Shown in pieces: positions 15,037 to 56,894 of a stretch of 64,000 bases of DNA. Within the stretch, counting starts at the first letter, position 1; every line of letters begins with the position of its first letter. A model generated the notes under the pieces. It was not told the DNA's origin, ran no database searches, and saw only the letters and a list, made by a program, of their open reading frames with translations. This DNA comes from Xestospongia bergquistia (Eukaryota; Porifera; Demospongiae; Haplosclerida; Petrosiidae): positions 1,488,001 through 1,552,000 of the forward strand of contig OZ014422.1 in the NCBI GenBank assembly GCA_963965975.1, given 5' to 3'. The translations under genes and the position numbers were made by a program.

Positions 15037-15858
15037 TATTTTGAACCTCAATAAATACCTGCTATATTAGTCTATTATAACTGTGTATTGACAACAGTGA
15101 TTAAAATATCTATTCTCAATTTAGTATTGGATTGTAAAAATTATTGTCACCAAAATGTCTCATCCTGTTCCAGATACCCCATATTAATGTTGCTAAGTGC
15201 AACTTGTCAGTACAATATGTGGGTAATATGACAGGGTGAGGTCTTCAGACTGATCTCTATCTACCACTTAGCACTCTCTTGAGTGATTGCATGGTCGCTT
15301 GATAGAGGAGCCATCAGACCATAGATGGTAGTAGATGGTGTAATGAAAGGTTACAACCTTAAGAGGTTGTAGGTTTTCGAAGTAAGCGTTATTTGAATGG
15401 TTCTCCAACTGATGAACGAAGTAAGCGAAGGAAGCGACAGTAATGTCGATTCCAAGTAACTAGTTCACACCAGAGGATCATTTTGACTGCTCTGATAATA
15501 TGAACTAGTATTGATTCTCAGCTATCTAACTGCGAATGAAATAGAAGACTTTCTTGCTGTCTTTTATACTTGTACGGTAATGCTGAATAGGTGCAATCTA
15601 TTAATAGTAACAGACATGATGTAATTCTTCCTAGAATGGTATTGTTATAATTGGGTTTAGGACAATTATGTACTGTACAATGCTTCTCAACGTTATGATG
15701 TCATTGTTACATCATTCTATAAATAGATTTGCACGGCGATGATACTAGTCTAGTGACGAGAGGAAATTTATACAAAGCAAAACATAGATATTGTAGTTAA
15801 CAATACACAATTACATAATAAAAAGTCTAACTATTATGCAAGAAATGACATGCATGAT
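15037..15858. other. Non-coding flank, duplicated at 32600-33010
   Basis: No gene was seen. From about 15165 to 15620 the sequence (CATCCTGTTCCAGATAC, TTGCTAAGTGCAACTTG, ACCACTTAGCACTC, GGTTGTAGG) reappears at 32600-33010 at moderate divergence, in the same position downstream of the GTPase gene. A segment near 15290-15385 has tRNA-like A- and B-box resemblance (GGTCGCTTGATAGAGGAG, then TTGTAGGTTTTCGAA). It may be an old tRNA-derived SINE or simply flank duplicated with the GTPase-chitin synthase unit. Confidence 0.5.
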
Positions 15859-17094
15859 TTATTCTGTCTTTTTTTTTTCAGTTTCAATATGCTCGCCTTG
15901 TAGCCATTTAATAAAACCTTCAAAAAATCCAGCAACGTGTCCAAGAACCCAAACTTGGTCCCCTCTCTTCTTGATATATTCTTTAACGTACATACTAAAA
16001 CTAGAATCTTCATCTTTTAGTTGTTTTCCTAAAATAGAACCAACTGGGAGTCCTCGATCAGCCACATTCTGAGTTGTATTTGTTGAACTGGACTGACTTG
16101 AATTCTGTTGTACAAGGTTGGGATCAGGTATAGGTGATGTAGTAACGTTTTCTTCTTCTTCTTCTCCTGGTAATGGTACATCACATTCTGATGGATCATC
16201 ATATATAGTGTCAGGTACCGGTACTTCACCGGGAGATGTCTCAATCACACGCTCAGATGGCTTATGAACATCTAATGGAGGCATTGGTTGTTCACAATCA
16301 TTACTAACTATTTTAATCCTGTGACGATTGGCTTGAAGAAGGGCTGATACAGCTGCCTTGCGCATGTGATCAGTACATTCCATCCAAAACCACACAAACC
16401 AATCATCCCTGCCTGGAAGAGTCCACGGGTTTTCTCGGCATAGGCCTTGCTTATATGACCCAACAGGAATAGCTCGCACAGCTTTTAGCTCCTCATCAGA
16501 CATTTTAACTTGTTTTTTTAGAGTTTGTTTGATCTTTTCTTCAAGATCCCAAACTCGATTAGTAAAGTAAAAGTCAAGTTCTTCATCGGGAGGGCAAAAT
16601 TGAGCAATATTGTTAGCAAAAGTGAGAATAAAGACAGTATGCTTCCAGAACTTACTTGTAAATACCTCAGTGAATTTCTTTATTGTATTACTGTGAACTC
16701 GAGTAGGGAATCTTGTGCCATCCATTCTAAAACAAAACAAAGCTAGATCATGTGGATAACATTCACTACGACGAAGTGTCTCCACCATTTTTTCATCCTC
16801 CTCTTCACTATCCATACCAAAACCTGGTGTGTCCCATATTTCTACATGAACTCCATTTTGATCCAAACTGTAATACTTGATTTCCATGGTGCCTGCATCA
16901 AACTTTTCTCCTTCATTAGCTACTTCCTTGCCAAGTAGACCATTGATCAATGTTGACTTGCCTTGACCTGTCTCTCCGATCACAACTAGTTTCAAACGTT
17001 GTCGAAGGCTGTCTTGTAAGAAAGACTTGACTATATCAGCATAGAATTCATCCCGGACGCTTTGTTGAGCTGGGGGCTCTTCCAAGGATGCCAT
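15859..17094 (-). CDS. AIG1/GIMAP-like GTPase, copy A
   Basis: Intronless gene of 411 aa. Residues ~33-40 form a beta strand (RLKLVVI) leading into the P-loop GETGQGKST (40-48, G1). DTPGFG (88-93) is G3. HTVFILTFAN (~156-165) resembles the G4 strand, without a canonical N/TKxD. A helical segment, EEKIKQTLKKQ, and the conserved block RDDWFVWFWMECTDHM follow. A Glu/Pro/Ser-rich linker with DVPLPGEEEEEN comes next. The C-terminal block SSFSMYVKEYIKKRG..VWVLGHVAGF is shared with copy B. The family is AIG1-like within TRAFAC GTPases; relation to septins is an alternative. It is transcribed away from chitin synthase A, whose ATG lies 345 bp off. Function unknown. Confidence 0.8.
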   Translation of the reverse strand: MASLEEPPAQQSVRDEFYADIVKSFLQDSLRQRLKLVVIGETGQGKSTLINGLLGKEVANEGEKFDAGTMEIKYYSLDQNGVHVEIWDTPGFGMDSEEEDEKMVETLRRSECYPHDLALFCFRMDGTRFPTRVHSNTIKKFTEVFTSKFWKHTVFILTFANNIAQFCPPDEELDFYFTNRVWDLEEKIKQTLKKQVKMSDEELKAVRAIPVGSYKQGLCRENPWTLPGRDDWFVWFWMECTDHMRKAAVSALLQANRHRIKIVSNDCEQPMPPLDVHKPSERVIETSPGEVPVPDTIYDDPSECDVPLPGEEEEENVTTSPIPDPNLVQQNSSQSSSTNTTQNVADRGLPVGSILGKQLKDEDSSFSMYVKEYIKKRGDQVWVLGHVAGFFEGFIKWLQGEHIETEKKKTE

Positions 17095-17439
17095 TTAGAT
17101 AGTCATCCGGTTTTTTTTGGGGGGGGGGGGGGCTTAGCAGGATTAGCGCCTCCTTTAACCTCAAAGCAATGCTATATATTTTAACTACCTGAAAATTAAT
17201 AGTTTGATTTTTAAGCAAATAAGTTGGTGATGGAGAGTGTAAAAGGATAAATTTTGGGTCTTGAACTGGTTTAATTATTCATTATTATTGATATTAATGA
17301 TTATGAATAACTTGTGATCGTGTCATTTTGTCTATTTTTGGTATCTAACACGTGAATAAGTTCACCTATTCATCGCCTGCTAACTAGATTCATGCATCAC
17401 CATGGTAATTAAGAAAGATAAGTTTACTTCAGCTCAGTT
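17095..17439. promoter_or_regulatory. Divergent promoter, GTPase A / chitin synthase A
   Basis: A 345-bp spacer between two start codons. It contains a T8-G14 homopolymer tract at about 17112-17132, an unusual G-run in an AT-rich region. A GTGATCGTGTCATTTTG stretch and CACGTGAATAAG (E-box CACGTG near 17350) may be regulatory. In copy B the spacer is only about 70 bp, so most of this sequence is either an insertion or dispensable. Confidence 0.5.
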
Positions 17440-17920
17440 ATGGCAAGTAGCAATTCTCTGGAAATAACTTACCAGCAATCTGTAAGAGACGAGACTGTAA
17501 ACTCTATTGAAGACACTGAAGAGAATGGAACATCATCCTCACAAGATCAACGCATTTTTCAGTCCAAGAAACGTACCGTCAAGATCATTGTCTGGTTTGT
17601 TAAACTGCTTCTTTTTGGTGGAGTACTCACTTGTCTCGTTCTCAGTAAACTCACTATAATCAAGATTATTGCAGAATTACATCTTTTGAGTAACTTCAGT
17701 ATCATTCATATTCCAAATGATACCCCTAAAGGCAACTCTCTTATACATGCTGCTAACCTTTATTGGATGCTGTTCTTTATAGTAATGATACCCAATTTGA
17801 TTGCATGGATACGAGCAATATTTAATGGACTGTTAACCAAATCTCCTAGTCATCCATGGCCCAAAAGATCTGCAATGTTAGGAGTAAGTGAAGTTTTTCT
17901 TAATACGATAATATCATGTA

Positions 17921-17962
<42 letters not shown>

Positions 17963-20900
17963 GAGTAATTTCTCTTCATTTCTAAATTTTCCTTTCTATA
18001 GGGTATACTAAATGCAGGTATGGAGGCAGTTGCAGAATCATTTCTTGTGTTCTATGTCTTCATTACTCTTCCACCTGAGATATCTGTTATTTTGATGTGT
18101 GGAGTATTTAGTACACAGTCACTGTTTCAAGCTGTTATTAATGTATACTATTATTGCAAACGTGGTAATAAAGATTATTCTCCCATTGGACATGCTAATC
18201 TCATACTTCAATATGGAAAACGCATTCACTTCTTTGTTAATTTCATCATGATATGTGGTCTTCTCTGTCAAATACTTGGTTTATTGTGTGTAATGACATT
18301 TAGTTTGAAAGCCTATCTTGATGTGGGACATAATAGGATATTAGGATTAGCACTTGTCATACCATGTTTGTTAATGCTATCCTTTAGTTGGTCGAGTCTA
18401 ATACAGAAGTTCACATTCATTCCAAGCCAATCATCGATACAAAAGGCATTAAACAGAAAAAGAACTCATACATTACGTCAAGAAGATTATAATGAGATAA
18501 CTATAACAGCAAGATGGAAAACAAGTAAGATATGTATATACGTGTAATTCATACAAGTGTAGTGTATGTATCAAACTAACCTTTCATAGTGTATGAACCT
18601 TCTATATGCTGCATATATATAATAATAACATAACTACTCAAAATGCTTCAAACTACTATTATATTAATGTTATGGTAAATGTTAATAACTTACATTAATA
18701 TTGTAGGTTTTATAGCGACATCTGTTCGTCTCCTCGTTTATCCCATAGCTAGTTATATTATCTTTCGATTCATGTATCACTTGCAGACAAATGAACTAGT
18801 TGATCCATGGGCAATTGATAAAGATACACAACTCACTATTTCACAAGCTTTTAACTGGAACAGTTTCTACAAGGCAGTTTTCTCTGTACATGTTGTTACC
18901 AGTTTCTTAGCTTATATTTTGTCGTGGCTTGCTTGTTATATGACTCTACATGTATTTGGACTAGGACTACCAATATTACTGGCTACACCTGTTACTATAG
19001 CTGTTTATTTTATATCAAACTCTTCAGCAGAGATACTCGGAAGGATTATTATACTGTTTCCATTTGAAGCTAAAGATGTAACACTGCTGGATTGGAAAGA
19101 CACTATAGTGTCAAAATGGTATGCTATTGCTTTTGGGTTGTCTTTCTTACTTTGGATTGGACAACAACTAGCATCAGGTTTCAATCTTTACAGAGCTAAG
19201 AATGCCATTCTTGCTTCTGATGAGAACATGTTTGTTAGACCTTATTACAACAGTGTTCTATTAGAGCAATACTTAGCTATCAATCGTGATGTATCTCATC
19301 AAGCACAAGTGAGAAAAGATGGTAGTCGGGAACCTTGTCAAGTTTTTATATGTTCAACAATGTTTCGAGAAAACTTTACAGAAATGAGACAAATGCTTAA
19401 GTCAATTAATCGTGTTGCCAAATATTATAGACATCAAATACACAGAATACATGATCGCTTCGAATCACATATCTTTTTTGATGGTGGCTGTCAAGAAGAT
19501 GAACTCTCATCATTTGCAATACAACTTATGAGTTTAGTAAATGAAGTATTAGGTGTGGAATTGACACAAACAAAGAAACAGAAGACACCTTATGGTTATC
19601 GTTTTACATGGACACTTCAAGATTGTATGCCATTTGTTGTTCATCTCAAGGACAATTTAAAAGTTCGGAACAAAAAGAGATGGAGTCAAGTTATGTACAT
19701 GAACTATGTGCTCGATCATCGCTCTGACAAAGATGGACTTGATCTCAACAATACTTTTATACTTACTACAGATGCTGATATTGATTTCCAAGCAGAGTCA
19801 GCTGTAGTTCTCTTGGATATGTTAGCTCGTGATCCACAAGTAGGTGCAGTGTGTTCACGTACTCATCCACTTGGGAGTGGTCCTATTTACTGGTATCAAA
19901 TCTTTGACTATGCTGTAGGTCATTGGTTACAAAAAGGTGCTGAACATATACTAGGCTCTGTCTTATGTTGTCCAGGTTGTTTTAGTATTTTTCGTTGTTC
20001 AGCACTTCAGGATTGCTTGTGTACATATTCTAGTGAGGTTAACAATGCAATGGAGTTCTTAATGAAGGATATGGGTGAAGATAGGTGGTTGTGTACACTT
20101 CTTGTAGAAAATGGTTGGAGATTGGAGTACTGTGCTATATCTAATGATTACACATATTGTCCTGTGGAGTTTGAAGAGTTCTTTAAACAACGTCGTCGTT
20201 GGATTCCATCAACTGTAGCTAATTTATGGCTATTGATATCAAAAGCAACTAAAATCACAGCCAATAATGAAGCAGTTAGTTGGTTTTTTATCATCTATGA
20301 GATTTTTGTTATTATCTCAACAATAATATCTCCAGCTACTGTTATTTTAGTTATAGCATCTGGGCTATCAGCTGCCTTTGGTTTGAACGGTGTTGCTGTA
20401 ATAATCACTCTAGTTATAATTGCTGTCTTTTATGGAATAATTTGTGTTTTCACTAGTCAGAAAACTCAACTAGATATTGCCAAAGGTCTGACCTTCCTTT
20501 TTGCTGTTATAATGGCTGTTGTAGTTGTTGGAATTATTAAAGAGACTGTTGAAGATATTATTAAACAGGGTAGCAACCACCATGACATTGAAAGTAATGA
20601 ATCAAATCGCAACTTTACTGATACCAATCCTATGCTTCCTATTGCTGAAAGCACTATATACATAAGTCTCTTTGGTGTTATTTTTATAATAACTGCCATA
20701 CTCCATTTTTCTGAGAGTTTTGCTCTCTTTCATTGCTTATGGTACCTTCTGGGTTTGCCTTCTGGTTATCTTCTACTTCTAATATATTCTTGTGCTAACC
20801 TCAACAGCAGAAGCTGGGGTACACGAGAAGGAAGTATTGCAACACCAAGTATATTCTCTGTGATCTGGCAAACAAGTAAAACTTTTATAATAAAACGTTT

Positions 20901-22248
20901 GAACAAAAACAAATTAAATAAGAAAGATCCAATAGAACAGGTGGCAATAATTGATGATAAAATACATGTACATCAGAAGTTTGAACAATCTTCAATAGAT
21001 CTAGAAAATCTTCCTAATCAAAGAACATTTGGTAAGCTGTGTACATACACTTCATGATTCCATATTAACATACTTTTTATAGAAACATTTACGTATACTG
21101 GTACAGAATATCCCTGGTTGATGAATTGGCTTAAAAGTGTCCAAAGTGAAGTGAGTTATACAACAAATTGTCTGTTTAGTGTTACAATAACGATAACTAT
21201 TTGTACACAGCAATTCTATGATCTGTTTGCTAAAGAAGGCTACACTGAAGAATGGTATGTGTCTGGAATGACCAAGAAGGTAAGTTGTCTCTTCTAACTC
21301 TGTGTAATATTAATGTAACCATGATCTAGGAGTTAACAGATATTGGAGTGAAACCTATAGGATATATTCGTCACTTGGATAAAGCCATTAAGAAACTTCC
21401 TCAAACTTTAATTCAAGTTGGATTACCAGTAATATACAACAACTTGTCATGATTAAATGAGTTTCTATTTCCTGTAGAAGTGTATTGAGAGTTGGATCAT
21501 TGATCTAAAAATGGATACCGAAGAGGATAGATACATTGATAAATTTCATGAGGCTGGGTACTATGGAGAATCAGATGTAGAAAATCTCAAAAATATAACT
21601 GCAGAAGAACTGAAAAAAGACATAGGTATCTATAAGAAAGGTATTTTTTAAAATTTGTTAAACAATCATGATATTTAACGTTCTTCAGCTCATATTAAGA
21701 GGTTAATGCAGGGGATAAATGGGTTAAAAATAAGAAATGAAGGTATGAATGCTCCTTCATCAATTTATATATTATGTTCTATTATAATATTAGACGAGGA
21801 AAGAGTTGCAAAAACCCAAATGAAATTGCAACTAAACTGTGATCATCCCAATGGCCACCTTGAAGATGATGAGATGACATTTTGGTTAAACATGATTGAA
21901 ACTGTCCTTAGACCTACTCCTGATGGCTTGTCACATGTTAATGAATTACGTGACGATCTCAATAATCTTCGTAATTATACCCTCATAGCAATGCTGTTAA
22001 TTAACCTTATTTGGCTGATTCTTCTCACAATATTTACTTTTGAAGATTTAGGAACATTTGGTCTCAGTACTCAACTTCTTGGTTTGCTGTTCTTAGCTGT
22101 ATATGGCATATTACTGTCAGTACAGTTTGTGGGTATGTTACTACATAGATTAGTAACATTGGCTCATTATATTGCTCGTCTCAATCAAGCTTTACCTGTT
22201 GAGCACACAGTGACACTAACAATGACAATAGCTAACAGCTCTGTCTGA
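17440..22248 (+). CDS. Chitin synthase (GT2) with tandem SAM domains, copy A
   Basis: Nine exons (17440-17883, 18002-18524, 18707-21031, 21083-21150, 21211-21279, 21330-21428, 21478-21640, 21689-21742, 21794-22248) join exactly in frame to 1399 aa. About nine membrane helices occupy residues 45-500. The cytosolic GT2 domain has CSTMFRE, HIFFDGG, DADIDF (~677, metal/UDP), GEDRWL (~779, catalytic D) and QRRRW (~817, product binding), the signature of processive chitin synthases. Five or more helices follow, then SWGTRE (~1025), a hallmark of animal chitin synthases. Two consecutive SAM domains (~1100-1175 and ~1178-1245) and a final two-helix hairpin ending HRLVTLAHYIA complete it. It polymerises GlcNAc from UDP-GlcNAc at the plasma membrane. 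Hyaluronan or another product is less likely given EDR/QRRRW/SWGTRE. Confidence 0.88.
17925..17960. repeat. (TA)n microsatellite
   Basis: TA run in intron 1 of chitin synthase A, absent at the same place in copies B and C. Confidence 0.9.
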
Positions 22249-23160: not shown

Positions 23161-24214
23161 ATTGTACACTGTAGGAGATATTCTTAAAAACTTACTAGAT
23201 ATGACACTGAGTTCTTGATCCAATGTGCTACTGTAGGAGATATTGTTAAGAACTTACAGATATGATGATAGATTTCTCGAGCCAATGTGATACTGTAGGA
23301 GATATTGTTAAGAACTTACTAGATATGACACTGAGTTCTTGATATCCAATGTGATACTGTAGGAGATATTGTTAAAAACTTACAGATATGATGATAGATT
23401 TCTTGATCCAATCTGACACTTGAGGAGATATTGTTAAGAACTTACTAGGTATGATGATAGAGCTCTTGATCCAATGTGATACTGTAGGAGATATTGTTAA
23501 GAACTTACAGACATAATGATAGAGTTCTTGATCCAATCTGACACTTGAGGAGATATTGTTAAGACCTTATTAGGTATAATTATAGATTTCTTGATCCAAT
23601 GTGATACTGTAGGAGATATTGTTAAGAACTTACTAGATATGACACTGAGTTCTTGATCCAATGTGATACTGTAGAATACATTGTTAAGAACTTACAGATA
23701 TGATGATAGATTTCTTGATCCAATGTGACACCATAGGAGATATTGTTAAGAACTTACTAGGTATTATGATAGAGCTCTTGATCCTTTGTGATACTGTAGT
23801 AGTAGATATTGTTAAGAACTTACCAGATATGATGATAGACTTCTTTACCCAAGGTGATACTGTAGGAGATATTGTTAAGAACTTACAGACATGATGATAG
23901 AGTTCTTGATCCAATCTGACACTTGAAGAGATATTGTTATGAATTTACTGGATATGATGATAGATTTCTTGATCCTTTTGATACTGTAGGAGATATTGTT
24001 AAGAATTTACTAGATATGATGATAGAGTTCTTGGCCCAAGGTCATACTGACATCTGTAGGAGATATTGTTAAGAACTTACTAGATATGATGATAGAGTTC
24101 TTGATCCTTTGTGATACTGTAAGAGATATTGTTAAGAACTTACTAGATATGATGATAGAGTTCTTGACCCAAGGTCATACTGTAGGAGATATTGTTAAGA
24201 ACTTACTAGATATG
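23161..24214. repeat. Satellite array, ~63-bp monomer, left part
   Basis: About 17 head-to-tail monomers with consensus like ACTGTAGGAGATATTGTTAA + GAACTTACTAGATATGATGA + TAGAGTTCTTGATCCAATGTG (60-66 bp). Variation (CTTGATCC/CTTTACCC, GAGTTC/ATTTC) marks individual monomers. The array is split by LTR element 1. Some runs of 63-bp monomers keep a 21-codon frame open (..GDTVGDIVKNLLDMMI..), but length variants break it. Confidence 0.93.
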
Positions 24215-24498
24215 TGTAGTGTACTATAGACTTATTATGTGAATGTTTATTTATCATGTCTATAGCCCTTGTTAATTATTGTAAACTCTCATTTTATCTG
24301 TACTAGGGCTGCACCACATGTTCTTAAATTAGTTACTAGAACATTCTAGAGCCCTTCTCATCTTTTGATTTTGTATAAATACTCATTGCCATATGTGTCT
24401 AGCAGATTTGAGTGTTGTTATAATTCTATTTGTTATTTTCTTCATGGTTGTTCTGATATACTCTTAATACTAATCCCAAGTGTCTACTCTACATCACA
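24215..24498 (+). repeat. 5' LTR of element 1
   Basis: 284 bp, starts TG and ends CA. TATAAATAC near 24375 is a likely TATA box for the retroelement transcript. Confidence 0.93.
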
Positions 24499-24527
24499 AT
24501 TGGCGACGAGGGTGGGATACCGTTACC

Positions 24528-27500
24528 ATGGCTAGTTACATTGGCTCCCCAGGACCTTTTGATCATCGCACTCAAAAGTGGTCAAGCTATCAGACTCAGT
24601 TTGAACACTTCCTCAGAGTGAATGAGATCACAGAGGATAAGAAGACTTCTTGCATCATTGCACTGATTGGAGCAGAGACTTATGAAATCCTGGAAAGTCT
24701 CGTGTTCCCTGAAAAGCCTGAAATCTTCAAGAGTGACGATTTGTTCAAAAGGCTAACTGCACATTTCGAACCTAAACGACTAAAAATTGCAGAACAATAT
24801 CGTTTTTGGAGGAACACTCAAGGACCATCGCAGAGCCTTGCTGATTACATTTCCTCCTTACGTAAAATGGCTTCAACTTGTGAGTTTCCAGGAGAGTATC
24901 TCCCAGATGCCTTGTGCACTGCTTTTGTATTGGGCCTTCGTGATGAAAATATAGCACGCAAGCTGCTTTCCGAGAAGGACCTCACTCTGGACAAGGCAAT
25001 CTCTATTGCACAAAATATGGAAGCTGCAGGGAAGGAAGCAAATGAAATCACGGCTCAAACTCCTAATTCTGTGAGTATTATTAAAACGCCTTCAAAGCGT
25101 TCAACACCGAAGACACTTCCACCAGGACCCTGTCCATCCTGTGGTGCAAAGGACCATTGGCGTTCTGCATGTCTCCATCGCAACACTGTCTGCTCATGCT
25201 GCAAGCGCATGGGTCACCTGGCAAGAGTGTGTAGGGATAGACACAAACAACACTCAGGGAAAACCAAGCACTTCTATCTACCAAAGAACCGAACTAATGT
25301 TATCAATGCAGCAGAAGAATCTGAACGCTGTACAGTTGTTCTTACTGTCAACTCCAGCTCCCCAAGCAAACCTGTTTTTGTTTCTGTCAAACTCAATGAA
25401 AAAACAGTAAAGTTGCAACTTGATACAGGAGCAAGCATTACACTCATTAGTGAAGCAACTTGGAAAAGAATTGGAAGCCCCCAGTTGGATCCCCCAGCAG
25501 TTCGTCTACAGAATTACTCAGAGGATGATATTCCCTTGCTGGGAGATTGCCAGGTTAGCGTTCAATGTGATGGTAAAACTTGTAATCTTCCAATTACTGT
25601 CACAAAAGGAAATCGACTTGATCTATTGGGACGCAGCTGGATTGAGGCACTCAAATTGGACCTAAATCATCTCTATCATGTCAACCATGTCAATATAAGC
25701 AATAACAGTCAGGCACTAGTAGGTATTATGAGACGATACGCCAAAGTTTTCCAAGAAGGTCTTGGACATTGCACGAAACATAAGGTCCACCTCACACTCA
25801 AAAGTGATGCTCAGCCTCGATTCTTCAAACCCAGACCACTACCATTTGCCCTGAAGCCTGCTGTTGAAATGGATATTCAAAGACTCGTCCATAATGGAGT
25901 TCTACAGAAAGTTGAACACTCAGATTGGGCTACACCCATTGTTGTGGTACCAAAACCTTCAAAAGCTGTAAGAATTTGTGGAGATTTCAGTGTGACAGTT
26001 AATCCTCAGCTCAACATTAATCAGTACCCTTTGCCACGACCAGAAGAACTGTTTACTGCTCTTAATGGTGGCTGTAAATTCACAAAATTGGATTTTTCTG
26101 ATGCCTACTTGCAGCTGGAACTTGATGATGAGTCTCGGAATTTCATGGTGATTTCGACACACTTGGGCCTGTACCAGTATACACGCCTTCCCTTTGGGAT
26201 TGCCGCAGCCCCTGCCATTTTTCAGCAAACAATGGAAACAATGTTACAGGGATTGTCTGGCGTTGTCTGCTACCTTGATGATATCGTTGTCACAGGGAAA
26301 TCTGATGTAGAGCACCTCCAAAACTTGGAACGAGTACTGGCCAAGATACAGGAATATGGTTTCCAAGTACGCAAGGAGAAATGTTCATTCATGCAAGATT
26401 CCGTAGAATACCTAGGACATATTGTGGACAAGAATGGAATCCATGTCTCTCCAAAGAAGGTCAAAGGAATAGTGGAAATGCCTAAGCCCAGAAACCAACA
26501 TCAACTACGTTCTTTCCTTGGAATGGTCAACCATTACGGAAAATTTCTGTGCAATCTCAGTGATATGTGTGCCCCTCTCAATAAATTGCTGCAGAAGGAG
26601 CAACCTTGGTCATGGACCAATAGCTGTCAAGACGTATTTGACAGAATAAAAAAAGAATTAGTCTCAACAGAAGCTTTGGCACACTATGATCCATCCTTAC
26701 CTTTATTTCTTGCTGCAGATGCATCATCCATTGGTGTGGGTGCTGTCATCTTCCATCGATATCCTGACAAAACTGAGCGAGCGATAGCTCATGCCTCGAA
26801 AACTCTAACACCAGCAGAGAGAAATTATTCTCAGATTGAGCGTGAAGCACTTTCCATCATTTATGGAATAAAGAAGTTCCACCAATACCTATGGGGTCGA
26901 CATTTCACAATTCAAACAGATCACAAACCATTGACAACAATTTTTGGTGGAAAGAAGGGTATTCCAACAACTACAGCAAGCCGTCTTCAACGCTGGTCAA
27001 TTATTCTCATGGGCTACTCATTTGAGATTGAATACAAAAGCACCAAACAGTTTGGAAATGCTGATGGACTTTCACGTTTGCCTGCTGGTCCGGACAAAGC
27101 GTTTGATTCTCTAGATCCTGGAAGGATTTGTGTAGTACAAAATATACACGAAGAACAAATACAGGATCTTCCTTTGAAGGCTGGTGACATTGCACGGGAG
27201 ACAGCCAAGGATCCTATACTGAGATCAGTGAAATATCACACACTCAATGGCTGGCCTAATCAAATCCAGAATGAGACCTTGCAACCATATTTCCGCAGAA
27301 GACATGAGCTTACAGTACTAAATGGTTGTCTTCTTTGGGGAATGCGAGTAGTTATTCCTAAGAGTCATCAAACATCACTACTACAAGCACTCCATGAAAC
27401 TCATTTGGGAAAAGTAAAAATGAAGATGCTAGCACGTTCACATTTCTGGTGGCCAAAACTAGATGGTGAAATTGAAGAAACTAGCAACAATTGCAAAGAA

Positions 27501-28427
27501 TGCTCAGAATTATCGAGAGATCCTGCTAAAGTTCCACTTCATCAATGGCAATATCCACAGAGACCTTGGCAACGTTTACATATTGACTATGCTGGCCCAT
27601 TTCTTGAGATGATGTGGTTCATCATCATTGATGCACACTCTAAATGGCCAATAGTGATCCCTACTAAGAAAGCAAGTACTGAAGCTACTGTGGAGATGAT
27701 GCTAGATGTTTTTACTACACATGGACTATGTGAGCAAATTATATCAGATAATGGTCCACAATTTATCTCTCGAGAATTTGAAGATTTTTGCAAGTCAAGA
27801 GGTATTGATCATGTGCTTTCTCCTCCGTATCACCCACAGTCAAATGGGGAAGCTGAGAGATTTGTTCAAACTTTTAAATCTGCCATGCAGAAAGCTAAGC
27901 AAGGAGGAAAGGCAGTGAAACCAGCACTTAGAAATTTTCTACTCACATACCGCATCACACCCCACTGTACAACAGGAATACCACCATGTGAACTTTTGAT
28001 GAAACGACACCTCAAAACAAAATTAGATTTGATTCACCCTCTCCAATCACCAAATCAAACAGTACAACAAGCAAAGGCTAATCAGAAAAAGCATTATGAC
28101 ATGCATACAAGCAAGAGAAAATTTAGTGTTGGAAACCAAGTACTTGTAAGGAACTACCGTAGCCAACCTAAATGGATTCCTGGCAAGATTACCAGACAGA
28201 TTGGAGGAATTACCTACTTAGTCCAAGTCAAGCATGGAGTATGGAAACGACATGCAAATCAACTTAAAATAAATAAGAGCAATGACTGGGATTACGAGCA
28301 CAAAGACTCTGATTTACCTTCAACATCTGAAAACGTGCCTACGTCTAAGCAAGAGACACCTGCACAAGATGGAAGTCGAAGATATCCTATACGTGAAAGA
28401 CACCCACCTGATCGCTATGGATTCTAA
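24528..28427 (+). CDS. gag-pol: Gag-Pol polyprotein of gypsy element 1
   Basis: One uninterrupted frame of about 1299 codons from the ATG at 24528, the first after the primer-binding site; the frame is also open further upstream into the LTR but without need. In order it holds a Gag capsid-like region, then two CCHC-type knuckles (CPSCGAKDHWRSAC, CSCCKRMGHLARVC). An aspartic protease (LDTGAS) and reverse transcriptase (YLDDIVV) follow. RNase H (AADASS) is followed by an HHCC integrase domain (HETH...CKEC), the DDE core (HIDYAGPF, SDNGPQF, NGEAERF) and a GPY/F-like tail (WIPGKITRQIGGITYLV). Gag and pol are fused without a frameshift. All key residues seem present, so it is potentially autonomous. 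Confidence 0.95.
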   Translation: MASYIGSPGPFDHRTQKWSSYQTQFEHFLRVNEITEDKKTSCIIALIGAETYEILESLVFPEKPEIFKSDDLFKRLTAHFEPKRLKIAEQYRFWRNTQGPSQSLADYISSLRKMASTCEFPGEYLPDALCTAFVLGLRDENIARKLLSEKDLTLDKAISIAQNMEAAGKEANEITAQTPNSVSIIKTPSKRSTPKTLPPGPCPSCGAKDHWRSACLHRNTVCSCCKRMGHLARVCRDRHKQHSGKTKHFYLPKNRTNVINAAEESERCTVVLTVNSSSPSKPVFVSVKLNEKTVKLQLDTGASITLISEATWKRIGSPQLDPPAVRLQNYSEDDIPLLGDCQVSVQCDGKTCNLPITVTKGNRLDLLGRSWIEALKLDLNHLYHVNHVNISNNSQALVGIMRRYAKVFQEGLGHCTKHKVHLTLKSDAQPRFFKPRPLPFALKPAVEMDIQRLVHNGVLQKVEHSDWATPIVVVPKPSKAVRICGDFSVTVNPQLNINQYPLPRPEELFTALNGGCKFTKLDFSDAYLQLELDDESRNFMVISTHLGLYQYTRLPFGIAAAPAIFQQTMETMLQGLSGVVCYLDDIVVTGKSDVEHLQNLERVLAKIQEYGFQVRKEKCSFMQDSVEYLGHIVDKNGIHVSPKKVKGIVEMPKPRNQHQLRSFLGMVNHYGKFLCNLSDMCAPLNKLLQKEQPWSWTNSCQDVFDRIKKELVSTEALAHYDPSLPLFLAADASSIGVGAVIFHRYPDKTERAIAHASKTLTPAERNYSQIEREALSIIYGIKKFHQYLWGRHFTIQTDHKPLTTIFGGKKGIPTTTASRLQRWSIILMGYSFEIEYKSTKQFGNADGLSRLPAGPDKAFDSLDPGRICVVQNIHEEQIQDLPLKAGDIARETAKDPILRSVKYHTLNGWPNQIQNETLQPYFRRRHELTVLNGCLLWGMRVVIPKSHQTSLLQALHETHLGKVKMKMLARSHFWWPKLDGEIEETSNNCKECSELSRDPAKVPLHQWQYPQRPWQRLHIDYAGPFLEMMWFIIIDAHSKWPIVIPTKKASTEATVEMMLDVFTTHGLCEQIISDNGPQFISREFEDFCKSRGIDHVLSPPYHPQSNGEAERFVQTFKSAMQKAKQGGKAVKPALRNFLLTYRITPHCTTGIPPCELLMKRHLKTKLDLIHPLQSPNQTVQQAKANQKKHYDMHTSKRKFSVGNQVLVRNYRSQPKWIPGKITRQIGGITYLVQVKHGVWKRHANQLKINKSNDWDYEHKDSDLPSTSENVPTSKQETPAQDGSRRYPIRERHPPDRYGF

Positions 28428-28438
28428 GCAAGGAGGAA

Positions 28439-28722
28439 TGTAGTGTACTATAGACTTATTATGTGAATGTTTATTTATCATGTCTATAGCCCTTGTTAAT
28501 TATTGTAAACTCTCATTTTATCTGTACTAGGGCTGCACCACATGTTCTTAAATTAGTTACTAGAACATTCTAGAGCCCTTCTCATCTTTTGATTTTGTAT
28601 AAATACTCATTGCCATATGTGTCTAGCAGATTTGAGTGTTGTTATAATTCTATTTGTTATTTTCTTCATGGTTGTTCTGATATACTCTTAATACTAATCC
28701 CAAGTGTCTACTCTACATCACA
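28439..28722 (+). repeat. 3' LTR of element 1
   Basis: Same 284-bp sequence as the 5' LTR on reading the two side by side. Confidence 0.93.
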
Positions 28723-29545
28723 ATATGACACTGAGTTCTTGATCCAATGTGATACTGTAGAATACATTGTTAAGAACTTACAGATATGATGATAGATTTC
28801 TTGATCCAATGTGACACCATAGGAGATATTGTTAAGAACTTACTAGGTATTATGATAGAGCTCTTGATCCTTTGTGATACTGTAGTAGATATTGTTAAGA
28901 ACTTACCAGATATGATGATAGACTTCTTTACCCAAGGTGATACTGTAGGAGATATTGTTAAGAACTTATAGACATGATGAGAGTTCTTGATCCAATCTGA
29001 CACTTGAAGAGATATTGTTATGAATTTACTGGATATGATGATAGATTTCTTGATCCTTTTGATACTGTAGGAGATATTGTTAAGAATTTACTAGATATGA
29101 TGATAGAGTTCTTGGCCCAAGGTCATACTGACATTTGTAGGAGATATTGTTAAGAACTTACTAGATATGATGATAGAGTTCTTGATCCTTTGTGATACTG
29201 TAGTAGATATTGTTAAGAACTTACCAGATATGATGATAGAGTTCTTTACCCAAGGTGATACTGTAGGAGATATTGTTAAGAACTTACTAGATATGATGAT
29301 AGATTTCTTGATCCTTTGTGATACTGTAGGAGATATTGTTAAGAACTTACTAGATATGATGATAGATTTCTTGATTCTTTGTGATACTGTAGGAGATATT
29401 GTTAAGAACTTACTAGGTATGATGATAGAGCTCTTGATCCAATCTCACAATTGAGGAGATATTGTTAAAAACTTACTAGATATGATGATTCTTGATCCAA
29501 TGTGACACTATAAGAGATATTGTTAATAACTTACTCTAGCTGATG
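28723..29545. repeat. Satellite array, ~63-bp monomer, right part
   Basis: About 13 monomers continue the array after the retroelement. The first ~430 bp repeat the same ordered set of monomer variants seen at 23636-24130: TGTAGAATACATTG, then CACCATAGG, then GGTATTATGATAG, then CTTTACCCAAGG, then TTGGCCCAAGGTC. This part of the array is thus a block duplicate of the part left of the insertion. Confidence 0.93.
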
Positions 29546-29885
29546 TTAAAGCTAATTTTAGATGTATTGAAATACTAACTTTAGGTGTTCTCAATAAGCT
29601 CATTGAAATGTTAATACTAGAGTAATAGGCTCATTGGAATGTTAATACTAGAGTAACAGGCTCACTGAAATGTTAACACTAGAGTAATAGGCTCATTGAA
29701 ATGTTAATACTAGAGTAATAGGCTCATTGAAATGCTAATGCTAGATTAATAGGCTCATTGAAATGCTAACACTAGAGTAATAGGCTCATTGAAATGCTAA
29801 TGATAAAGTTAAGTTCTCTCAATAAGCTCATTATAATTCTAAAACTAGAGTTAGGTGTTCTCAATAGGCTCAATGAAATGCTAAA
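29546..29885. repeat. Minisatellite, ~31-34 bp unit
   Basis: About eight copies of a unit like TAGGCTCATTGAAATGTTAATACTAGAGTAA. Some copies carry TTCTCAATAAGCTCATT variants. Confidence 0.9.
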
Positions 29886-30054
29886 GCGGTCCCCATAATA
29901 AGAATTAGAATATGCTAAACTCTTTTGACAAAAGTTCAATGCTAATGCTAAACTGTCTTCACATATTAATAACAGCTCAGAAGGCCAGATTTAAAAAATA
30001 GAAAAATCAGTTCGCTGAAACATCAGTTAAAAAGACTTGATGCTAACAATTCTA

Positions 30055-30600
30055 TGCTCTCTTTAGAAGCTGTCTTGAAAAGTCAGATCCAAAAAATTAG
30101 TTGTCTTTAAAAAAAAACAAGCTATCAGTTTGAAAATCAGTATATGGCAGATTTAAAATAATACAAATGCAGCAATCAGTTCAAATGCTCAACGCTAAGA
30201 TGTCTCAATTCTCATTCCAACGCTTGAAGCTGTTGTAACAATTAATTGAAAGGCCCAAAGCTGTCTTGAAAATCAAAGCTGTTTTAACAATTCTTGTAAA
30301 GGTCTGAAGTTGTCTTGACAATTTATTTCAATTGTTCGAAGCTGTCTTGATAATGCCTGAAGCTGTCTTGAAATCCATTTATCTTAACAACTCTTGTAAA
30401 GGTCCGAAGCTGTCTTGACAATTATTTCAATGGTTCAAAGCTGTCTTGACAATTATTTCAATGGTTCAAAGCTGTCTTGACAATTATTTCAATGGTTCAA
30501 AGCTGTCTTAACAATTATTTCAATGGTCCAAAGCCGTCTTGATAATGCCTGAAGCTGTCTTGAAATCCATTCACCAAAGCTGTCTTGACAATTATCAAAT
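30055..30600. repeat. Degenerate minisatellite (AAGCTGTCTTGACAATTATTTCAATGGTTC)n
   Basis: Ten or more units of about 30-35 bp with AAGCTGTCTTGA cores. They are near-perfect at 30415-30520 and decayed on either side. 29886-30054 holds scattered related words only. Confidence 0.85.
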
Positions 30601-32600
30601 CTGATATATGAATATATTACGAAACAAATATCAGAATATCCATTTGAAGAAACTGTTGAAGCTAATGCTCTCAATGGCCAGTGCAATGCAGCAACAACAA
30701 TATACAGAATAGAACAATAGAAACTAGTCCTCATGTACTACGGGTACACGGAGGTATCACTAGTTTCTACAATACATTATATATTAGGACTTCCATCTCC
30801 TTATAATGAACTGTATTAGTGCCTAGTTCTGTTATAGAATGTAGTAGTACAGTTACTGTCACACAGTGTACAGTTATTAAACAAAACGACAAGGTAACTC
30901 ACAGTTTTGAAGGAAGACAAGCAAGACAAGACAAGACAAGCAACAACAACAACAAAATAATAATAATAATACAGAGGTGAATGTGGACATGATACACCCA
31001 GTAAAAGCTGGGGAAAAACTAGACCCAGTAAAAGCTGGGGAAAACTTAGGTAGCCCAGAAAAAGCTGGGTAAAAAAGTAGATGGACCACAAAAACTAGCC
31101 TACATGCTCAAAATATATCAATTATTTAGACCTAAGAAAACTAGGAGCACATGATACCTTGTCGATCATGCACTCCTATCAAAAACTAGATGACCCAGTC
31201 TACAAAAACTAGATGGCCCAGTCTATAAAAACTAGATGGCCCAGAGACCGTCAGGGTCAAAGCCAAGCTGTGGGCCAGAAATGATTCTCTACCGAAGCAA
31301 ACACACAGTGATAACCCAACTTAGCACAAAAAATCCCTTCGATACAGCGGTGTATCAATTAATGGATTTGAAACAGAACATAGGGAGATGGAAGTCTATA
31401 ATGTCATTGACCGTTAGCATGCAAGTCTTCACTTTAGTCCATCATATGTTGTCCATTATGCAACTACCCAATACATGAGACATTGTACACTACATACATG
31501 AACAGACTTACAGATTACCACACTATCATCTAATCTAACAATAGAGTTCCTTGATAAAGTCTTAGTTTATGTGCCTCGTTTCGACTATGATCTCCCTTGA
31601 TAATGACTACTAATGATCCTTTATTAACAAAGAGTAATACAGCCAGTAACAGGACCCATTTTTAATAGAGATATCAACTGAGAGCTAGTATCCTGTGGAA
31701 TTAAATAAAGAGAGAAGTAAAATAGAAAGGCTTCTACAAAATTATTTAAATGTGATTTTTTCTTTAGGAGGCTATATGTCAACCGTACTACAACTATACA
31801 GAGCTACAAAGCTGGTATGCTTACTTGTTTATCTCTATCTTGGTCTAACAGGGCCCTCTATTTCAGCAAACACCATAAGAATGAAAGGGTTTGCAGCTCC
31901 TTAGGCAACAACACAATGTACACCATGTGGAAACTCCAAATTGAAGAGATTCATTACTCAAAAGTGCGTTGTTCTTCTCCAGGGGTCAATATTCACTCAG
32001 CTCTCTAGTCAGTCAAACTGAACAATAATACATTTGATTTATTAATTTTTATACCACGTTTTTCCCGGGTTTTTACTAGGCATGCGCAGTAAGATATATC
32101 ATTAATTTTATCAGTGTCTAAAACCGGTTTTACCAGTAATTGTATCGTATTTTTAAAAACATCAAAAATGCATAAAATTATCAGAAATAAGGGAATTTGA
32201 TTGGCCACATTTCCCGCTCTTAGCTAGTATAAGCATTACATCATAAATTAGGTACTATTATTAGCTACAATTAGTTAAGTACTGAACTATGCACAGGGTA
32301 CTATTTGTATCAAAATTAAACAATTTATACATATATAATTACATGTATCATTACTTTTATTGCTAAGGTACATGAAGTAAGACTTGAATATCTTATGTAA
32401 AAATAACCTTTAAAAACCTTCTAGTTTTGTAGCTATGGTAGGTTAAGTGGAAGAATAATAAAAAGAAGACTGTATCATCCCTAGTATTATTGCATGCCAT
32501 CGTACTGTTTGATTTACATAGTCAATTCTTCATAGACATTGCATACAAATACATTTTACACTTATATTTGCAGCCAAAAAGCCAAATAAATAAACCTAAT
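30601..32600. other. Repeat-rich intergenic region, no gene supported
   Basis: Contains GACAAGACAAGACAAGCAAC and (AAC/AAT)n near 30920-30975. A 30-bp repeat with CCCAGTAAAAGCTGGGGAAAA (three copies, 30995-31075) can form a CCCAG...CTGGG hairpin. Three copies of AAAACTAGATG(A/G)CCCAGTCTA follow at 31182-31245. Open frames here are short and lack recognisable domains or codon structure. Confidence 0.6.
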
Positions 32601-33334
32601 AGTCATCCTGTTACAGATACACTATATTGATGTTGCTAAATGCAACTTGACAGTACAATATATGATAGTATAACAGGGTGTGGTCTTCAGACTGTCAGAT
32701 GATCTCTATATACCACTTAGCACTCATTTGAGTGATACATGGTCACTTGGTAGAGGAGTCATCAAATCAGTGATTGTAGTAAATGGTGGAATGAAAGTTA
32801 CAACCTTAATAGGTTGTAGGTTTGAATTAGCAATATGATTGGCTCTCAACTTATGAACAAAATAAGTGATTAAATGACAGTGATATTGATTCCAAGTAAC
32901 TAATTTACAACAGAGTATTGATTTTCAGCTATCTGTCAAATGAAACAGAAGGTTTCTTAATACCTTTAAATTTGTACAGCAATGCTGAATAGGTGTGATC
33001 TATTAATAGTAACAGTTATGATGTAATTCATTCTTTCCTCAAGGAATGTTGTTATAATAACATGTGAAAAGCATATCTGACCTCATCTATGTAATTATTA
33101 CATCATACCTCTTCTGTTAGTCATAACATTGAAAGTGATAGGAAGGAATGCTGATACATAGTAAGCTAATACTATAGGTAGGACTACTTCGTTATTGATC
33201 ATAATAGTTTACCATAATAATTAAATGATTAAATTGAATCAAAATGTTAGAGTAGAAAACAGTTAATACAATCGTTCAGAAAATAAGATATATATACATA
33301 CCACACAAATAATAATTAGAAAGGCGTTGTTTTT
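32601..33334. other. Duplicated non-coding flank of GTPase B
   Basis: 32600-33010 is the counterpart of 15165-15620: same order of words CATCCTGTTACAGATACAC, TGCTAAATGCAACTTGACAG, ACCACTTAGCACTC, GTTGTAGGTTTGAA. A tRNA-like B-box (GGTTTGAATT, ~32817) is better preserved here than in copy A. 33010-33334 shows nothing further. Confidence 0.5.
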
Positions 33335-34513
33335 TTATTGTTTCTTTTTCTTTCTTTTAAATCTGCCACCTTTTCCCAAATATTCAGCCAAACCTTCAAG
33401 AAAACCTCCAATATGTCCCAGAATCCAAACTGATTCTCCTCTTTTCTTGGTATATTCCTTAACATACATACTGAAACTAGAGTCTTTGTTATCTAGTTGA
33501 TGTTGTAAGATGAGAAAAAATGGAATTTCACGTGCGCATGGAGAAAAATTCTCATTTTCACAAGTCAAATCAACTTCTTGCTGTTCATCACTTTTAGATG
33601 GTCCAGGACTACCATTTATAAAATTTGTTACTTCATCAGGAGAAGATTCAATTGTACGTTCAAATGGTTTATAGACATTAGACGGAGGCATAGGTTGTCC
33701 ATATTCTGGTGCAACTTCACTAACTATGTTGATCCTGTGAAGATTGGCTTGAAGAAGTGCAGATACAGCTGCTTGATGCATGTGTTCGGTACATTCCATC
33801 CAAAACCAAACGAACCAATCTTCTCTATCAGGAAGAGCCCACGGGTTTTTTGGATCAATCCCTTGCTTGTATGAACCAACAGGAATAGCTCGTACAGTTT
33901 TTAGCTCATCTATAGACATATTGACATGTTTTTTAAGAGTTTCTTTAATCTTTTCCTCAAGTTCCCAAACTCGCCGAGAAAAAAATTCTTCAAGTTCTTC
34001 ACTGGGAGGGCAAAGTTGAGCAACATTGTTAGCAAAAGTGAGAATAAAGACAGTATGCTTCCAGAATTCCTTTCCAAATACTTCTGTGAATTTTTGTATT
34101 GTATCAATGTGAACTCGAGTAGGGAACCTTGTGCCATCCATTCTAAAGCAAAACAAAGCTAGATCATGTGGATAACATTCATTACGATGAAGCGTTTCCA
34201 CCATTTTTTCATCCTCTTCTACACTACCCATACCAAAACCTGGTGTGTCCCATATTCGAACTGAAACTCCATTTTGATTTAAATGGTAATATTTGATCTC
34301 TAGAGTGCCAGCTCCAAAATCTTCTCCTTCATTAGCTACTTCTTTACCAAGAAGACCATTAATTAGTGTTGACTTGCCTTGACCTGCCTCTCCAATTACC
34401 ACGAGCTTCAAATGCTTAGGGTTGCCATAATCATTCAAATAGGATTTGACTACATCAGTATAGAGTCGTAAACGCTCAGGACTTGACTCAGAAAGTTCCT
34501 CTAAAGATGCCAT
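33335..34513 (-). CDS. AIG1/GIMAP-like GTPase, copy B
   Basis: Intronless. The start is placed at the ATG of MASLEELSES (34513), because copy A begins the same way; upstream codons are open but have no ATG in frame. About 392 aa. P-loop GEAGQGKST (41-49), DTPGFG, FILTFANN, the WFVWFWMECTEHM block and the C-terminal SSFSMYVKEYTKKRG..VWILGH block match copy A closely. The linker between them has diverged (Glu run lost, CENENFSPC gained), suggesting the two conserved blocks carry the function. It ends in a basic tail (KRKKKKQ), which copy A also has in shorter form (EKKKTE). It diverges from chitin synthase B. Confidence 0.8.
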   Translation of the reverse strand: MASLEELSESSPERLRLYTDVVKSYLNDYGNPKHLKLVVIGEAGQGKSTLINGLLGKEVANEGEDFGAGTLEIKYYHLNQNGVSVRIWDTPGFGMGSVEEDEKMVETLHRNECYPHDLALFCFRMDGTRFPTRVHIDTIQKFTEVFGKEFWKHTVFILTFANNVAQLCPPSEELEEFFSRRVWELEEKIKETLKKHVNMSIDELKTVRAIPVGSYKQGIDPKNPWALPDREDWFVWFWMECTEHMHQAAVSALLQANLHRINIVSEVAPEYGQPMPPSNVYKPFERTIESSPDEVTNFINGSPGPSKSDEQQEVDLTCENENFSPCAREIPFFLILQHQLDNKDSSFSMYVKEYTKKRGESVWILGHIGGFLEGLAEYLGKGGRFKRKKKKQ

Positions 34514-34584
34514 ATGTACGAAAATATTATGGGCGTGTTTCAATTTAATAATAACTATGTATAACTTGCATATTGTACAGAGTT
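34514..34584. promoter_or_regulatory. Minimal divergent promoter, GTPase B / chitin synthase B
   Basis: Only about 70 bp separate the two start codons. It holds AATAATAACTATGTATAACTTGC and GTACAGAGTT. Similar words (TTTATAACTCGCACGTTGTACAGC) precede chitin synthase C at 41905-41935, so TATAACT...TTGTACAG is a candidate conserved core element. Confidence 0.55.
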
Positions 34585-37500
34585 ATGGCTAGCAACCAGC
34601 CTCTACAAACGTACCAGCAGTTAGTAAGAGACGAGACTGTAAACTCTATTGAAGACACTGAAGAGAATGGAACATCATCCTCACAAGATCAACGCATCTT
34701 TCAGTCCAAGAAATTTACTGTCAAGATTGTTGTCTGGTTTGTTAAACTGCTTCTTTTTGGTGTAGTACTCACATGTCTTGTTCTCAGTAAGCTCACCATA
34801 GTCAAGATAATTGCAGATTTACATATCTTGAGCAACTTCAGTATGTATAATAGTAGTACTAGTGACAACTCTCTTACACGTGCTGCTAACCTTTATTGGA
34901 TGCTGTTCTTTATAGTAATGATACCCAATTTGATTGCATGGATACGAGCAATATTTAATGGACTGTTAACCAAATCTCTTAGTCATCCATGGCCCAAAAG
35001 ATCTGCAATGTTAGGAGTAAGTGAATTACAATCATAAATAATCTACATTCAATATATATAGACTATATGTGAATGTTTTACCAACTTTTGAAATTTATTT
35101 TAATGCCACTAAAATTTTTTTATAGGGTATAGTAAATGCAGGTATGGAGGCAGTTGCAGAGTCATTTCTTGTGTTCTATGTCTTCATTACTCTTCCACCT
35201 GAGATATCTATTATTTTGATGTGTGGAGTATTTAGTACACAGTCACTGTTTCAAACTTTTATTAATGTATACTATTATTGCAAACGTGGTAGTAAAGATT
35301 ATTCTCCCATTGGACACAATAATGTCATGATTCAACATGAAAAAAGCTGTTACCGTCACTTTGTTACTTTTATCTCAATATGCAGTCTTTTTTGTCAAAT
35401 ATTTGGACTAGTTTGTGTGATTGGATTTCTTGCGAAAGCAGCATATCAAATCCCAGGACATAATAGAATTTTAGGATTAGCCTTTGTCATACCATGTTTA
35501 TTAATGCTATCCTTTAGTTGGTCTAGTCTAATACAAAAGTGGACATTCACTCCAAGCCAAACATCATTGCAACAAGCATTAGAGAGAAAAAGATCTTATA
35601 AATCACACCGAAATGATTATCATGATACAACCATAACAACAAGATGGAAATCAAGTAAGAAATGTGTGCAAGTAAATGCATGTGATTGCCATGCTAAGGT
35701 CAATCTCCTGAAAATCTATTTTCATAGTGCTGAGACTATACCCTATCTTTCAATGTATTGTCTAATCTATTATTATATTTATCATAGTATTACACCTGTG
35801 TTATGATAAATGTTACTCTATCATATTGTAGGTTTTATAGCAACATCTGTTCGTCTCCTAATTTATCCAGTTGCTAGTTATATTATCTTTCGATTCATGT
35901 ACCACTTGCAAACAAATGAACTAGTTGATCCATGGGCAATTGATATAGATACACCACTCACTATTTCACAAGCTTTCAACTGGAACAATTTCTACAAGGC
36001 AGTTTTCTCTGTACATGTTGTTACCAGTTTCTTAGCTTATATTTTGTCGTGGCTTGCTTGTTATATGACTCTACATGTATTTGGACTAGGACTACCAATA
36101 TTACTGGCTACACCTGTTACGTTAGCTGTTTATTTTATATCAAACTCTTCAGCAGCAATACCTGTATTTAAAAATACAATCACATTATTTCCATTTCAAG
36201 TTGGAGATATAACTTTTCTAGATTGGAAAGATACTATGGTGTCAAAATGGTATGCCACTGTTTTTTGGTTGTCTTTCTTGCTTTGGATTGGACAACAACT
36301 AGCATCAAGTTTCAATCTTCACAGAGCTAAGAATGCTATTCTTGCTTCTGATGAGAACATGTTTGTTAGACCTTATTACAGCAGTGTTCTATTAGAGCAA
36401 TACTTAGCTATCAATCGTGACGTATCTCATCAAGCACAAGTGAGAAAAGATGGTAGTCGGGAACCTTGTCAAGTTTTTATATGTTCAACAATGTTTCGAG
36501 AGAACTTCACAGAAATGAAACAAATGCTTAAGTCAATTAATCGTGTTGCCAAATATTATAAACATCAAATAGACTTAAATAGAGTACATGATATCTTTGA
36601 ATCACATATCTTTTTTGATGGTGGTTGTCGAGAAGATGAACTCTCATCATTTGCAATACAACTTATGAGTTTAATAAATGAAGCATTAGGTGTGGAATTG
36701 ACACAAGGAAAGAAACAAAAGACTCCTTATGGTTATTGTTTTACATGGACACTTCAAGATTGTATGCCATTTGTTGTTCATCTCAAGGACAATTTAAAAG
36801 TTCGGAACAAAAAGAGATGGAGTCAAGTTATGTACATGAACTATGTACTCAAACATCGCTCTGACAAAGATGGACTTGATCTCAACAATACTTTTATACT
36901 TACTACAGATGCTGACATTGACTTCCAAGCAGAGTCAGCTGTAGTTCTCTTGGATATGTTAGCTCGTGATCCACAAGTAGGTGTAGTGTGTTCACGTACT
37001 CATCCACTTGGGAGTGGTCCTATTTACTGGTATCAAATCTTTGACTATGCTGTAGGTCATTGGCTACAAAAAAGTGCTGAACATATACTAGGCTCTGTCT
37101 TATGTTGTCCAGGTTGTTTTAGTATTTTTCGTTGTTCAGCACTTCAAGATTGCTTGCGTACATATTCTAGTGAGGTTAACAATGCAATGGAGTTCTTAAT
37201 GAAGGATATGGGTGAAGATAGGTGGTTGTGTACACTTCTTGTAGAAAATGGTTGGAGATTGGAGTACTGTGCTATATCTAATGATTACACATATTGTCCT
37301 GTGGAGTTTGAAGAGTTCTTTAAACAGCGTCGTCGTTGGATTCCATCAACTGTAGCTAATTTATGGCTATTGATATCAAAAGCAACTAAAATCACAGCCA
37401 ATAATGAAGCAATTAGTTGGTTTTTTATCATCTATGAGATTGTTGTTATTATCTCAACAATAATATCTCCAGCTACTGTTATTTTAGTTATAGCATCTGG

Positions 37501-39839: not shown

Positions 39840-40135
39840 ATTATCATTAGCTATTATTGTCTTATTATCAGTAAATACCATCTCAACAGGTAAAGCTTGA
39901 TTGAGACAAGTAATATAGTGAGCCAACGTCACTAATCTGTGTAGTAACACACCCAAAAACTGTACTGACAGTAACATGCCATATACAGCAGACTAAGAGT
40001 CCGAGTACTGAGACCAAGTCTTCCTAAATCATCACATGTAAACACAGATATAAGAATAAGTCAAACAAGGTTAATTAGTAGCGTTGCATAATAGTGTGGT
40101 TACGAGGATGATTGAGATCATAACTTCAATGATGT
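39840..40135 (-). pseudogene. Chitin synthase relic, last exon, minus strand
   Basis: Reads on the minus strand like the final two-helix exon of the synthases (SVQFLGVLLHRLVTLAHYI, then LNQALPVE). Frameshifts near 39980-40010 break the link to the first helix (ILIAVFTF-like). It is closest in position and flank to copy D, the minus-strand gene. No other exons of this copy survive before the GTPase relic at 40545. Confidence 0.8.
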
Positions 40136-47423: not shown

Positions 47424-47548
47424 AATCAAATGAATCAGATTCATTTTTTGATTTCATATCTTTTAATGATTTTTAGCAAAAATGATTTATGATTACTGTT
47501 TGATAGTAGATATTGAAATTACTTTTTATGAATGATTTTTGATACGTG

Positions 47549-47856: not shown

Positions 47857-47887
47857 CTTGGCGACGAGGGTCAACGGAAAACGCAGC

Positions 47888-51850: not shown

Positions 51851-51860
51851 CAGGGAGGAG

Positions 51861-56849: not shown

Positions 56850-56894
<45 letters not shown>

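Follow-up and report, generated by a model that had tools for sequence, protein, structure and literature searches.

AIG1-domain GTPase genes head to head with type I chitin synthase genes in an apparent early animal are probably inherited neighbors

According to Zakrzewski et al. 2014 (PMC3942024), one or two C-terminal SAM domains are a trait of most metazoan type I chitin synthases, a group in which that paper places its sequences from sponges, cnidarians and choanoflagellates. The chitin synthases described here share with that group the Chitin_synth_2 core, several membrane segments and the C-terminal SAM domains, and as enzymes they show no important difference from it. We found them in a genome of 146 Mb on 21 contigs, apparently that of a sponge, within a stretch of 64,000 nucleotides (C12:1488001-1552000) that is called the window below. 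The Chitin_synth_2 profile scored 94 bits in synthase A (cut-off 27), and the tail of this gene, spliced by eye, contained two SAM stretches (PF00536, E 2.4e-15); similar SAM exons could be read by eye in synthases B, C and D, in keeping with an earlier sequence-only reading of the locus, which had proposed a double-SAM chitin synthase. The strings DAD, EDR, QRRRW and SWGT, which we take to be catalytic, occurred once each in all four synthases of the window. Judged by its Chitin_synth_2 core and its SAM domains, the window synthase belongs with the type I chitin synthases of animals; it would be a processive GT2 enzyme of the membrane that polymerizes chitin, and its two SAM domains probably cluster it. 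A genome-wide search with Chitin_synth_2 gave nine matches, all of them over the cut-off, four in the window and five on contig C1. What is new beyond the known type I synthases is this set of nine matches in two clusters, together with an apparent gene conversion of the catalytic core within one of the clusters.

The GTPases encoded next to these synthases resemble two described families, the Toc33/Toc34 GTPases of the plastid outer membrane and the GIMAP/AIG1 immune GTPases. GTPase A and GTPase B both passed the Pfam AIG1 cut-off of 27 bits (54.5 and 48.3 bits, respectively, over about two thirds of the profile), and the name AIG1-like given to them in the sequence-only reading therefore holds. 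When the sequences of solved structures were searched, the top match was 3bb4 (T7I23.11 protein; E 1.6e-11, residues 33-243), which is presumably Arabidopsis Toc33; pea Toc34 (1h65) matched with an E value of 4.9e-7, and IRG, GIMAP and septin domains came after the chloroplast Toc proteins. The nearest solved relative was thus not a GIMAP protein, Toc33 and Toc34 scoring higher. AlphaFold2 modeled the two GTPases poorly (mean pLDDT 45.4, pTM 0.43), and the Foldseek match of this low-confidence model to 1h65 (E 9.6e-7) agrees with the sequence search. The likeness to Toc33/Toc34 covers the whole G domain, but GTPases A and B have N- and C-terminal tails of their own, the identity is low, and there is no plastid. 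Likewise, they pass the AIG1 profile and give weaker matches to GIMAP7, GIMAP5 and GIMAP4, whereas their G4 region reads LTFAN and their C-terminal block is unmatched elsewhere in the genome, the last 49 residues of GTPase A finding matches in A and B only (E up to 10). In each protein, the 19-residue stretch with the highest hydrophobicity lies within this block, and lysines come after it close to the end of both. Because of the kinship with Toc34 and GIMAP proteins, we infer that the GTPase would contact a membrane and pair in a GTP-dependent manner. It would most likely act as a Toc34/GIMAP-like switch, pairing via the G domains in its GTP-bound state, with the conserved hydrophobic C-terminal block and the lysine-rich tail holding the cytosolic face of the membrane, and its work would probably lie in membrane or immune biology, for which the synthase would not be required.

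The genome contained 52 AIG1 matches, 48 of them over the Pfam cut-off, with clusters on contigs C7, C13, C2 and C4. Paralogues on C9, C13 and C2 have the GQGKSTLING P-loop and LTFAN in common with GTPases A and B, but their identity to them does not exceed 38% across the G domain (45% in a single fragment of 75 residues), and, unlike GTPases A and B, they do not lie near chitin synthases. A 15-row tree was built from A, B and 13 paralogues out of the 52 AIG1 matches, with 5 of the 12 internal branches left open. In it, A and B paired with full support. Their long branch falls on the same side of the deepest split (100/99, rooted at the midpoint) as the C9, C13 and C2 paralogues, with no resolved sister. 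Prokaryote genomes yielded one distant GTPase-like locus among 266 pattern matches (Finegoldia, 26% identity), which is uninformative, and none of 89 pattern matches in viral contigs was confirmed as a relative. AIG1/IAN genes are reported absent from Amphimedon in PMC11229196 and PMC3723955, a report that would need revising if the present genome is that of Amphimedon. Even as a mere neighbor of the synthase, the gene is a diverged AIG1/Toc34-like GTPase with a C-terminal block of its own in an apparent early animal. Macro-domain-like sequence precedes two of the paralogues, the one on C9 (L020; 19.4 bits, below the cut-off of 22) and, by eye, the one on C13 (L022).

The layout of the locus is given in Table 1. 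Three features proposed in the sequence-only reading were confirmed, namely, the head-to-head arrangement of pairs A and B, a spacer of about 70 bp in pair B, and a dead GTPase beside synthase C. GTPases A and B are 67% identical. The DNA of dead GTPase C is 82% identical to that of GTPase B over 532 columns, and only codons 85-258, approximately, of the 392 in GTPase B are detectable; no trace was detected at the locus of roughly the first 84 codons, P-loop included, or of the C-terminal part. Where the 5' part of GTPase C is expected, there is a dispersed repeat, two stretches of which (41107-41434 and 41453-41628; parts 46-373 and 392-567 of the query) recur widely in the genome, with 55 matches including itself among the 40 of 162 candidates that were scored. 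Two relics of a synthase last exon, found in a window self-comparison of matches of at least 60 bp lying clear of 24000-33000 and 47700-52400, point to further synthase copies that have been lost from the cluster. Between the synthase genes and outside the pairs lie two open reading frames of retroelement polyprotein type, identified by eye (24474-28427, 1317 aa; 47837-51850, 1337 aa). Self-comparison also showed a tandem repeat array 3' of synthase A (23166-24214, unit roughly 60 bp), and a Peptidase C14 (caspase-like) open reading frame of 263 aa is found at 62147-62938 (58.8 bits).

Table 1. Features of the locus, in window positions
Feature	Position	Strand	Remarks
Non-coding flank A	15160-15627		beyond 3' end of GTPase A; common to 32603-33029
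GTPase A	15859-17094	-	AIG1-domain GTPase, 411 aa, one open frame
QQSVRDE in GTPase A	17047-17067	-	N-terminal tail, aa 10-16
Spacer GTPase A/synthase A	17095-17439		345 bp, ATG to ATG, head to head
Chitin synthase A	17440-22248	+	exon ends placed by eye using splice signals
Synthase A exon 1	17440-17883	+
QQSVRDE in synthase A	17473-17493	+	N-terminal tail, aa 12-18
Synthase A exon 2	starts 18002	+
Synthase A catalytic exon	18707 to about 21031	+
Synthase A SAM exons	about 21083-21625	+
Synthase A last exons	21689-22248	+
Non-coding flank B	32603-33029		beyond 3' end of GTPase B
GTPase B	33335-34513	-	AIG1-domain GTPase, 392 aa from own ATG
Spacer GTPase B/synthase B	34514-34584		71 bp, ATG to ATG, head to head
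Chitin synthase B	34585-39451	+
Relic, chitin synthase last exon	39883-40124	-	3' of dead GTPase C
Dead GTPase C	40538-41057	-	frame breaks and stops
Dispersed repeat	41107-41628		in expected place of GTPase C 5' part
Chitin synthase C	41942-46834	+
Relic, synthase last exon and downstream DNA	47303-47540	+	from self-comparison
Chitin synthase D	52485-58697 (start 58697)	-	GTPase neighbor not found; absent from the sequence-only reading

The two intact pairs have more in common than their genes. Non-coding flanks A and B, which lie beyond the GTPases, are 75% identical over 475 columns (356 of 420 ungapped positions) and contain stops in all frames, and a genome search with flank A gave two matches, its own position and flank B. 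Across the window, flank included, neither Rfam (gathering) nor a tRNA scan gave a match. A non-coding flank that is common to A and B and has two genomic copies implies that one block of about 7 kb, from the flank to the 3' end of the synthase, was duplicated and, consequently, that the two genes are adjacent in both pairs through inheritance and not through repeated origin. The flank is 15% diverged at ungapped positions, below the level of the GTPase synonymous sites (47%). We also looked at the neighborhoods of all nine synthases in the genome and found that two have an intact GTPase neighbor and one has a dead one, while none was found for the other six (synthase D and the five on C1). 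Upstream of synthase D, 5.3 kb of window sequence gave no GTPase match, and tblastn, applied to the window and loci L029-L033, found a GTPase in none of the five stretches of 3.2-3.6 kb upstream of the C1 synthases. Searches with AIG1 and with GTPase B gave no match within 100 kb of the C1 synthases, the nearest on that contig being at 16546251-16546883, about 137 kb away. A GTPase-synthase linkage recurring independently of the one duplication was not found.

In the sequence-only reading, recurrence of the pair had suggested a functional unit, with joint duplication as the alternative explanation of the linkage. A single block that includes non-coding flank, along with the six synthases lacking a detected GTPase and the one beside a dead gene, does not support the former, and it is the latter that best fits the shared flank and its two genomic matches. 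Close divergent neighbors are, moreover, very common in Amphimedon, in which, according to PMC4773876, 18,054 genes (45%) lie head to head, 11,379 have starts within 1 kb, and the median intergenic distance is 587 bp; if the present genome is built likewise, a divergent neighbor at 71-345 bp is ordinary. The gene ancestral to synthases A, B and C would first have acquired an AIG1-domain GTPase gene as its head-to-head neighbor, an arrangement that is probably common in this genome, and the block of GTPase and synthase would then have been duplicated with its adjacency inherited. We concluded that an independently useful GTPase has probably been carried along as the inherited neighbor of a synthase, and that it is not a proven partner. 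In yeast, septins and their adaptors bind or position a chitin synthase, and by analogy the GTPase might bind or position the synthase complex as part of a true functional unit, but the neighbor counts over the nine synthases argue against this arrangement, which we consider unlikely.

We used the Nei-Gojobori method with Jukes-Cantor correction and a codon bootstrap to estimate selection on the GTPases. Differences between GTPases A and B amounted to 0.47 per synonymous and 0.20 per non-synonymous site, with an omega of 0.32 (95% bootstrap 0.23-0.43) and with silent sites near both gene ends close to saturated. By part, omega was 0.24 for the G domain, 0.58 for the linker and 0.17 (0.05-0.50) for the C-terminal block. 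In a neutral simulation, the GTPase reading frames were still open in 1.6% of 1000 runs at 0.1 changes per site and in 0 of 1000 at 0.2. GTPases A and B look like functional genes and are under clear purifying selection, and the relaxed selection on the GTPase that, according to the sequence-only reading, would have refuted its proposal was not found. That they are decaying passengers turning into pseudogenes, as the death of GTPase C might suggest, is highly improbable given the upper bound on omega, the two intact frames and the failure of neutral frames to stay open. Purifying selection on both GTPases and on a C-terminal block matched in A and B alone speaks, on the other hand, for a functional unit of GTPase and synthase, and we count the long survival of the GTPase beside the synthase and the restriction of the block to A and B as points against an inherited neighbor. 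The silent distance between GTPases A and B ranged from 0.22 to 0.70 when the gene was scanned in successive windows; given this unevenness, the GTPase pair may itself have undergone gene conversion.

Two further points count against an inherited neighbor, and the first is a short peptide. QQSVRDE is present in the N-terminal tails of both members of pair A, and its counterpart in synthase B is QQLVRDE, which again favors a functional unit. GTPase A and synthase A use different but synonymous codons for six of the seven QQSVRDE residues (9 of 21 bases), and the peptide was therefore not copied recently at the DNA level. When the two 30-residue tails were shuffled 200,000 times, a shared run of seven residues appeared once, a figure that applies to a sharing spotted by eye, post hoc, among many possible comparisons. 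Genome-wide, three places encode QQSVRDE, the two in pair A and one on C5, compared with one for a reversed-pattern control. Its absence from GTPase B, synthases C and D and the five C1 synthases speaks against a functional unit, and the shared peptide may be due to chance or may be a common binding motif. A direct partnership of GTPase and synthase is possible. In its most specific form, the GTPase would be the dedicated partner of a subset of sponge synthases. As a Toc34-like membrane switch docked onto the synthase or onto a shared scaffold, it would use QQSVRDE in pair A and control where or when chitin is made; we regard this version as improbable. If such a partnership is real, it would newly tie a GTPase to an animal chitin synthase, the first, to our knowledge, to be so linked. 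Full-text literature on chitin synthase, GTPase and AIG1 gave only one paper, on a fungus and unrelated by its title and abstract, which does not prove absence from print.

The second point is a weak element common to the spacers. A short AT-rich stretch before the start gave a local score of 26 between the A and B spacers, which 1.5% of 1000 shuffles reached (best shuffle, 31), and a score of 44 between B and C, which none of 1000 shuffles reached; the last 36 bp of the B spacer align with the stretch before synthase C. Such an element allows co-regulation, and it could be that the genes are co-regulated neighbors without contact, a bidirectional promoter providing a chitin-barrier cell with an immune-type GTPase. 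The short spacers (345 and 71 bp) and the AT-rich stretch in the A/B and B/C comparisons are consistent with this explanation, as are the GIMAP-family genes named in the response of one sponge to symbionts and in that of one coral to immune challenge (PMC11229196 and PMC3723955, respectively). The likeness of these sponge and coral genes to GTPases A and B is, however, one of family. The A and B spacers are otherwise unalignable, although the synthase genes with their introns and the far flank align, the comparison of A with C was not significant (14% of shuffles), and the exons of synthase C stay open without a GTPase. Co-regulation without contact is unlikely, though it has more in its favor than a functional unit.

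Synthase C provides a natural test of dependence on the GTPase. A synthase that depends on its neighboring GTPase should be relaxed once that GTPase is lost, as has happened beside synthase C. With A as the outgroup, synthase C had 71 amino acid changes to 50 in B (p 0.069) and 41 silent codon changes to 29 (p 0.19). The amino acid/silent ratio was equal in the two (Fisher p = 1.0), such that no shift, and no relaxation of C relative to B, was seen, which argues against a functional unit; the test, from which 31 ambiguous sites at which A, B and C all differ were dropped, is weak in that it pools exons that are apparently gene converted. Taken alone, exon 2 and the last exon gave 14 amino acid and 0 silent changes in B and 26 and 14 in C (Fisher p 0.011, post hoc), the opposite of relaxation in C. 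Direct comparison of synthases B and C gave an omega of 0.92 for exon 2 and 1.03 for the last exon, both with wide intervals, and relaxed constraint on these exons in both B and C is possible.

The catalytic core of the C12 synthases (alignment columns about 180-540) showed 0-0.17 differences per synonymous site between copies, the inverted synthase D included, while the same core showed about 0.2-0.7 against the four of the five C1 synthases that were included in the comparison. In the tails, comparisons with A or D reached 0.3-0.6 per synonymous site, B and C being closer to each other. This pattern fits repeated gene conversion of the C12 catalytic core, as a consequence of which distances between the synthases would understate the age of the duplication. 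Thus, in this chitin synthase family, the catalytic core has been kept uniform, apparently via gene conversion, while the tails have diverged.
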